Assembly: GCA_020247005.1 (NCBI GenBank)
Contig: JADCJN010000032.1
Span: forward strand, 1 to 32,897
Direction: 5' to 3'
DNA from: Silvanigrellales bacterium
GTDB lineage: Bacteria > Bdellovibrionota_B > Oligoflexia > Silvanigrellales > Silvanigrellaceae
DNA length: 32,897 bases
Shown: positions 202 through 1,084 of the stretch, piece by piece
Numbering within the stretch: the first letter of the stretch is position 1
How the letters are laid out: each line of letters opens with the position of its first letter
Program-made: the position numbers and the translations under genes
The notes under the pieces: model-generated
Seen by the model: only the letters and a program-made list of their open reading frames with translations
Told to the model about the DNA's origin: nothing
Databases searched by the model: none

Positions 202-305
202 TTAGTTTAGGTTTGCCTGCCTGAATTCAGACGGACTCATCATTTTGAGCGCCTTATGAGGGTGATGTTCATTGAAAAGAGTGCTTCTCACTTCGCCGAA
301 AGTGC
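202..305 (-). pseudogene. IS3-type transposase, C-terminal relic
   Basis: Read on the minus strand, this frame encodes about 33 codons ending in a TAA at 202-204. The peptide has the C-terminal signature of IS3-family OrfB integrases: a leucine and asparagine followed by the H-P-H-K-A-L block (usually R-P-H-x-A-L), then S-P-S-E-F-R (usually T-P-x-E-F). The catalytic DDE core is missing, so the copy is dead. The frame runs into the 3' end of the lysozyme gene at about 290-305, which suggests the breakpoint lies there. The IS481 family shares this ending, so the exact family is uncertain. Confidence 0.65.
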
Positions 306-710
306 CACCATGGTGCTCTTCTTGAGCCGAAAAACTTTGCAGGCATCTTGTTTATAGCGGTAGCCGTACCACGCCCAATATCCGCTTTCTTGAAACACCT
401 TCCGCGCGCACGCCACATTCACCTTCGGGTTGAGCAGCTGCTTGCGAGTGACACCGCACTCGGAAAGCCAAATATCATTAATCTGAAAGAGCCCGGTGTC
501 GTGTGATCCGTTGCTGTTTACGTTCTTTGCCTTTGGGTTGTAAAGCGACTCGTACTTCGCGGTGCAAACCATTTTAGGAATCGCGTGCGCTGGGAATCCA
601 GCGTCCTTCAGAAGAAAAGCGACATCCTTGGGCGCGAGCTTGACCTGCGCGAAAGACGCTTGTGGGAAGGCACAAATGCAGAATGCGAGCAACGCCGCTA
701 CGGAGCGCAT
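288..710 (-). CDS. secreted c-type lysozyme-like protein
   Basis: This 140-residue exported protein probably cleaves peptidoglycan between N-acetylmuramic acid and N-acetylglucosamine. Residues 1-21 form a signal peptide ending S-F-A before Q22. The core aligns by eye, without gaps, with the catalytic region of animal c-type lysozymes. Glu54 sits in C-T-A-K-Y-E-S, and Asp71 in G-S-H-D-T-G-L-F-Q-I-N; they are 17 residues apart, as are Glu35 and Asp52 of hen lysozyme. Cys49, Cys85, Cys101 and Cys124 match hen Cys30, Cys76, Cys94 and Cys115, which form two of its four disulfides. The segment E-C-G-V followed later by C-A-R-K-V and G-Y-W-A-W resembles insect lysozymes. The start is firm: GGAGGTGAT lies six bases before the ATG. 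The closest bacterial alternative is an IagB/VirB1-type lytic transglycosylase, which shares the G-S-x-D-x-G-L-x-Q-I-N motif but not the cysteine pattern. The last few codons abut an IS relic. Confidence 0.8.
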   Translation of the reverse strand: MRSVAALLAFCICAFPQASFAQVKLAPKDVAFLLKDAGFPAHAIPKMVCTAKYESLYNPKAKNVNSNGSHDTGLFQINDIWLSECGVTRKQLLNPKVNVACARKVFQESGYWAWYGYRYKQDACKVFRLKKSTMVALSAK

Positions 711-1084
711 CCATCACCTCCTCAACAAGGGGACTCTTTGGGCTGTCGTGGCAGACGAAAGCAAACTCGCCCATGGGGTTCACTCGTTAAGCAGGAATCA
801 TGCCTCTCAGGAACAGAATCTAGCCCCAGTCAATGGCCTTTTTTCCCTCTGATATTAAAATGTTCATTCTAAAAAAAGCGCTCAGAAACTAAAGCCCCTC
901 GGTGCCACTGTCGACGACCTCGACAGTGGCTGTTTCTTTAGTCACACAAGCCAGACGTTTCCTTGCTGAATTTTACAATCGCATTAACTTGGCAAACAGC
1001 GCTCCGCAGAGGCGGACGTTTGCTCATTGCCTGCGGACGCGGGCGGGACTGTGCCGGAGAATCGTGTCGCAAGGAGGAACTGCA
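711..1084. other. 374-base divergent intergenic region
   Basis: This region separates the divergent lysozyme and OmpA-like genes. Its main content is the palindrome at 888-942, annotated separately. An A/T-rich patch at about 850-880 includes a run of seven A (T on the minus strand). Frames open on both strands between about 560 and 870 only mirror the lysozyme gene. I found no convincing -35/-10 pair; TTGCTG near 962 with TAACTT near 985 is a weak possibility for the OmpA-like gene. Confidence 0.4.
888..942. repeat. nested intergenic hairpin
   Basis: A perfect 11-bp stem (904-914 GCCACTGTCGA with 920-930 TCGACAGTGGC, loop CGACC) is enclosed by an outer 7-bp stem (888-894 ACTAAAG with 936-942 CTTTAGT). 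A T-rich stretch (TGTTTCTTT) follows the inner stem on the plus strand. It could be a terminator, but no plus-strand gene precedes it, and the minus-strand lysozyme is transcribed away from it. An RNA structure in the OmpA-like leader or a protein-binding palindrome is also possible. Confidence 0.6.

Follow-up and report, generated by a model that had tools for sequence, protein, structure and literature searches.

Among the closest known relatives of the gene analysed here are the animal c-type lysozymes (GH22, PF00062), such as those of Bombyx, Musca, trout and hen. The gene lies in a 32,897-nucleotide stretch of DNA from a member of the Silvanigrellaceae (Bdellovibrionota in NCBI terms), referred to here as the window, and its product shares with these enzymes the fold, the spacing of the catalytic Glu and Asp, and the positions of hen Asn46, Gln57, Asn59, Trp108, Cys30/115 and Cys76/94. 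In contrast to the animal enzymes, to which it is about 30% identical, the window protein lacks equivalents of Cys6-127 and Cys64-80, has a shortened or missing 61-75 hairpin (carrying Trp62 and Trp63), and starts with a signal sequence of bacterial kind, its gene likewise having a bacterial ribosome site. A 2019 review already lists GH22 enzymes for the bacterial genera Labilithrix, Frankia and Enterococcus (PMC6403190); the available part of that review names genera only and mentions neither Silvanigrellaceae members, phage copies nor M23 fusions. Homologues from Labilithrix share all invariant residues of the window protein.

Three bacterial or phage groups resemble the window protein in part. 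IagB/EtgA/VirB1-type transglycosylases (SLT, PF01464) have the same Glu-Asp spacing and the same NGS.D.GL.QIN strip, but they lack the c-type cysteines, differ in the second half of the domain and score higher with the SLT than with the Lys profile. SLT_3 domains (PF18896) of phages and actinobacteria share the Glu and Asp, the AGFPE helix and the motif DP..N...A..Y...G..AW, but have no cysteines at the four places, score lower with Lys than with SLT_3 and stand separate in the tree. The DslA lysozymes of Bdellovibrio belong to the lysozyme superfamily and come from the same phylum (in the NCBI sense) as the window genome; unlike the window protein, they are described as nearest to GH23, use a Glu-Glu pair and prefer deacetylated wall (PMC7511926). 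Work on lysozyme exchange between animals and bacteria has centred on the goose type and on myxobacteria (PMC11576321), and the origin of animal lysozyme has been called elusive in a study in which exchange likewise concerns the goose type (PMC12855814). A literature search that covered few subscription journals returned no description of a Silvanigrellaceae or phage branch, or of a degenerate M23 fusion beside TrbI.

The window gene and its surroundings

The open reading frame that the initial annotation had placed at 288-710 is real and has exactly these ends; it runs on the minus strand, which had been left unstated (Table 1). Its contig (C218) is part of a 4.28 Mb draft genome that is 92% complete. 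The signal peptide and Shine-Dalgarno site of the initial annotation could likewise be read in the sequence. Cleavage would fall after SFA and before Gln22, giving a mature protein of ~119 residues with a pI of 9.7, a charge of about +11 and exactly four cysteines instead of the eight of hen lysozyme. The third-position GC of the gene is close to that of neighbouring genes. Since the contig ends 287 bases past the lysozyme stop, neighbours are visible on the other side only; they encode an OmpA family protein, YebC, a thiolase and fatty-acid oxidation functions, and include no secretion genes.

Table 1 Features of the window and of related loci, with the basis of each assignment.
Feature	Position	Strand	Basis or remark
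c-type (GH22) lysozyme-like gene, 140 aa, predicted exported	288..710	minus	ATG at 710, TGA 290..288; Pfam Lys
Predicted Sec signal sequence, residues 1-21, MRSVAALLAFCICAFPQASFA/Q	648..710	minus	Read off the translation; low-confidence part of the model
Shine-Dalgarno GAGGAGGTGATGG directly before ATG	711..723	minus	Read in the sequence; near-perfect
Lysozyme domain, residues 38-119	354..599	minus	Pfam Lys match
Glu54 (hen Glu35), general acid/base	549..551	minus	Alignment; invariant in 18 bacterial members
Asp71 (hen Asp52), nucleophile	498..500	minus	Alignment; invariant in 18 bacterial members
Span of Cys49, Cys85, Cys101 and Cys124	339..566	minus	All four invariant in 18 members; absent from IagB-like rows
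Putative IS3-type transposase C-terminus remnant (GGTFGEVRSTLFNEHHPHKALKMMSPSEFRQANLN)	205..309	minus	Its end weakly matches a 304-aa frame on contig C26 of the same genome
End of repeated element at contig edge	1..139	none	Complete or partial copies of the 139 bases at 36 further places in the assembly
Degenerate M23 and c-type lysozyme fusion, Pigmentibacter	L035:5512-6300		TrbI and TraD-like genes at the locus
Degenerate M23 and c-type lysozyme fusion, genome G004	L040:6805-7560		TrbI gene at the locus
Four-cysteine c-type-like lysozyme, viral contig	L070:3953-4273
Four-cysteine c-type-like lysozyme, viral contig	L071:3971-4291
Four-cysteine c-type-like lysozyme, viral contig	L069:2177-2587

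A transposase remnant, which we take to be of IS3 type from the ends of IS3 OrfB proteins, overlaps the last lysozyme codons in a different frame and thus belongs to the flank, outside the enzyme. The final residues of the window lysozyme may derive from this old insertion. The contig breaks at the window edge because positions 1-139 are the end of a repeated element, many copies of which sit at contig ends. Eukaryotic contamination was considered and rejected: the contig carries bacterial genes, its end repeat recurs at 36 other places, and the same genome holds a second lysozyme copy on another contig (C106), which has an added C-terminal part and is 51% identical over the domain.

Family assignment, active site and fold

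The window protein matched Pfam Lys with 48.5 bits (E = 1.2e-12, cut-off 27), a likeness that is therefore not due to chance. SLT_3 was not the best Pfam match, and its 40.7 bits, above its own cut-off of 27, lay just 8 bits under Lys, so that the border to the SLT_3 family is soft. SLT reached 24.8 bits, and the IagB model of NCBIfam (25.1 bits against a cut-off of 208, E 1e-5) and the VirB1 model (11.5 bits against 212) fell far short of their cut-offs. The c-type identity given in the initial annotation thus held, and a search for a better match among IagB, VirB1 and SLT families found none. In the reciprocal test, plasmid IagB-like enzymes gave 71-80 bits with SLT and at most 22 bits, below the cut-off, with Lys.

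Comparing profiles with each other, the bacterial set aligned to the animal lysozymes over 95 columns (E 4e-30) and to IagB over 83 columns (1e-19), and the animals aligned to IagB over 43 columns (1.5e-12). Searches of the PDB with the bacterial-set profile put animal c-type lysozymes (insect, fish and others) at the top, and the best single matches of the window protein itself were insect lysozymes; the IagB profile returned EtgA first. In every test run, the window protein stood closer to the c-type (GH22) lysozymes, with the IagB/VirB1 and SLT transglycosylases further away.

Alignment to hen lysozyme bore out the gapless correspondence previously proposed by eye, with window Cys49-Asn78 lying on hen Cys30-Asn59 and 17 residues between Glu54 and Asp71. 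This spacing had been offered as a mark of the c-type family; it is present, but it is not exclusive, as 9/9 IagB-like plasmid transglycosylases have it too (alignment A4). It is therefore weaker proof alone, and the family is better recognised by the four cysteines and by the second half of the domain. As the initial annotation had held, Cys49, Cys85, Cys101 and Cys124 match hen Cys30, Cys76, Cys94 and Cys115, with a small gap for the last, and the IagB-like rows have no cysteine at any of these places. Asn65, Gln76, Asn78 and Trp114 match hen Asn46, Gln57, Asn59 and Trp108. All of these residues, together with the catalytic pair, are invariant in 18 bacterial members (the window protein and 17 others). 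The hairpin that hen lysozyme forms at residues 61-75 is shortened, and the remaining four hen cysteines have no counterpart. Judged from its sequence, the window protein is a four-cysteine variant of the c-type family and not a c-type lysozyme of the animal form.

The AlphaFold model of the window protein had a pLDDT of 91.6. In a Foldseek search, all of the 50 matches listed were c-type lysozyme chains or a c-type lysozyme-like protein, the closest solved folds being the Musca and Bombyx lysozymes (rmsd 1.5-3.2 A), with moderate TM-scores of 0.62-0.71 by query length. The predicted fold would hold two of the four hen disulfides.

Relatives in bacteria, phages and secretion-like operons

Four-cysteine lysozymes were found in about 18 bacterial members from two phyla and in phages. 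In the phylum of the window genome, 11/58 genomes carry members, and nine of these 11 belong to the same family; Fluviispira multicolorata, a relative of the window bacterium, carries a match. Among Myxococcota, 4/379 genomes had a match at E 0.001, one of these SLT_3-like, and the members there come from Labilithrix-like and other Myxococcales. None of the 14 control genomes had a match. Two proteins were not counted as family members, namely the SLT_3-like match in genome G363 (L066) and a myxococcotal paralogue that has lost its Asp (L068). This paralogue (L068:1348-2211, genome G412) keeps the Glu, and reads NVKRGLFQI where the catalytic Asp would lie. The three viral loci (L069, L070 and L071) also carry phage primase, polymerase or exonuclease genes, and the viral collection additionally holds cysteine-free SLT_3 forms, located in long open reading frames.

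Three bacterial relatives have a long N-terminal part (Pigmentibacter L035, G004 L007 and G013 L011). Both of the long relatives that were scanned contain an M23 domain and adjoin TrbI-like genes in type IV secretion-like operons. In Pigmentibacter ruber (plasmid AP029160), M23 precedes the lysozyme domain within the fusion, whose gene follows a TrbI-like gene, and the third gene past the fusion encodes a TrwB/TraD coupling protein; G004 shows matching gene order with related proteins. By eye, the M23 part of the fusions is missing the usual metal-binding histidines and may be a non-catalytic domain. Judging from this arrangement, some members may take the place of the VirB1-type enzyme in conjugation machines.

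Origin and likely function

Trees were built with IagB and SLT_3 as outgroups. Of the animal rows, those of trout and insects were taken from PDB alignments and joined by hen and human sequences, the hen row scoring 166 bits on Pfam Lys. The signal comes from about 110 informative columns, so that deep branches are weak. The bacterial four-cysteine forms, the animal enzymes and three phage forms grouped in one clade (90/81 to 96/98; 99/97 in another tree), the animal lysozymes formed one clade within it (100/99), and IagB was kept apart at 100/99. In the best trees, the animals branched from inside the set of bacterial and phage forms, at support values that were weak to moderate. Masking the cysteines left this picture unchanged.

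The initial annotation had proposed either a transfer from a eukaryote or a little-known bacterial branch. The branch is borne out by the bacterial and phage members described above, whereas a recent transfer of an insect-like animal gene into the bacterium is so improbable that we give it hardly any weight: insect lysozymes are indeed the best single PDB matches, but the domain of the window protein shares about 30% identity with insects versus 51% with a Myxococcales protein, it lacks the additional disulfides of the animal enzymes, the composition of the gene matches that of its neighbours, and, with the animals in one firm clade, placing the bacterial set with insects inside the animals was rejected in the AU test (p 0.013). 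Alternatively, an early animal could have passed the gene to bacteria long ago, after which two disulfides and the hairpin would have been lost and the gene would have spread through bacteria and phages. This would fit the patchy occurrence in the two phyla and a single bacterial (and phage) clade beside the animals, a topology that the AU test did not reject (p 0.16-0.44). Such an old transfer appears unlikely, given the nesting of the animals in the best trees and the fact that SLT_3, the profile of the phage domains without cysteines, also matches the bacterial set, as expected of forms intermediate between these domains and the animal enzymes. For the opposite direction the case is evenly balanced: animal c-type lysozymes may descend from a bacterial or phage four-cysteine lysozyme, which in turn would have arisen from SLT_3-like domains of phages and bacteria that have no cysteines, with the animals then gaining two disulfides and the Trp62/63 hairpin.

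As to function, we are confident, short of certainty, that the window gene encodes a small, basic, Sec-exported lysozyme of c-type fold, which most likely cleaves the MurNAc-GlcNAc bond of peptidoglycan. The Sec system would export the protein and disulfides would form in the periplasm; Glu54 would then act as acid/base and Asp71 as nucleophile in hydrolysis by the retaining mechanism of c-type enzymes. IagB-like transglycosylases have this Asp as well, so that sequence does not by itself tell hydrolysis from transglycosylation. The window protein could be read as a lytic transglycosylase of the IagB/VirB1 type (GH23/SLT) whose c-type features arose by convergence and whose task is to open the wall where a secretion or conjugation machine is to pass, as its strip ES..A.N.N.NGS.D.GL.QIN and the next segment are IagB-like, the IagB model matches at E 1e-5, and M23-fused relatives lie beside TrbI-like genes. 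We regard this reading as improbable, because the IagB score is far below its cut-off, the four cysteines are missing from IagB-like rows and the visible neighbours include no secretion genes; membership in IagB/VirB1 was rejected by the reciprocal Pfam scores, which split both sets cleanly, and by the trees. The c-type lysozyme would more likely attack other cells' walls, or free fragments of wall, than work at a secretion machine, a target favoured because the protein is single-domain and strongly basic and has no machine genes beside it; that foreign wall material is its target is about an even call. A lysozyme serving only the cell's own wall, in remodelling during growth, division or local opening, is nearly as probable, at somewhat less than even odds: the translation has a Sec signal and no visible outer-membrane export signal, and relatives are tied to type IV secretion-like operons, but the single-domain, strongly basic form with no wall-machine neighbours in view speaks against it, and its patchy presence argues against a housekeeping role. 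No MliC-type lysozyme inhibitor for self-protection was found in the 92% complete genome.

The scattered bacterial and phage branch may show the source of the animal enzyme. Bacterial and phage c-type lysozymes provide a close outgroup for the chicken-type family. Real proteins can thus be used to test where the family came from, which of its disulfides appeared first and how hydrolases and transglycosylases parted.
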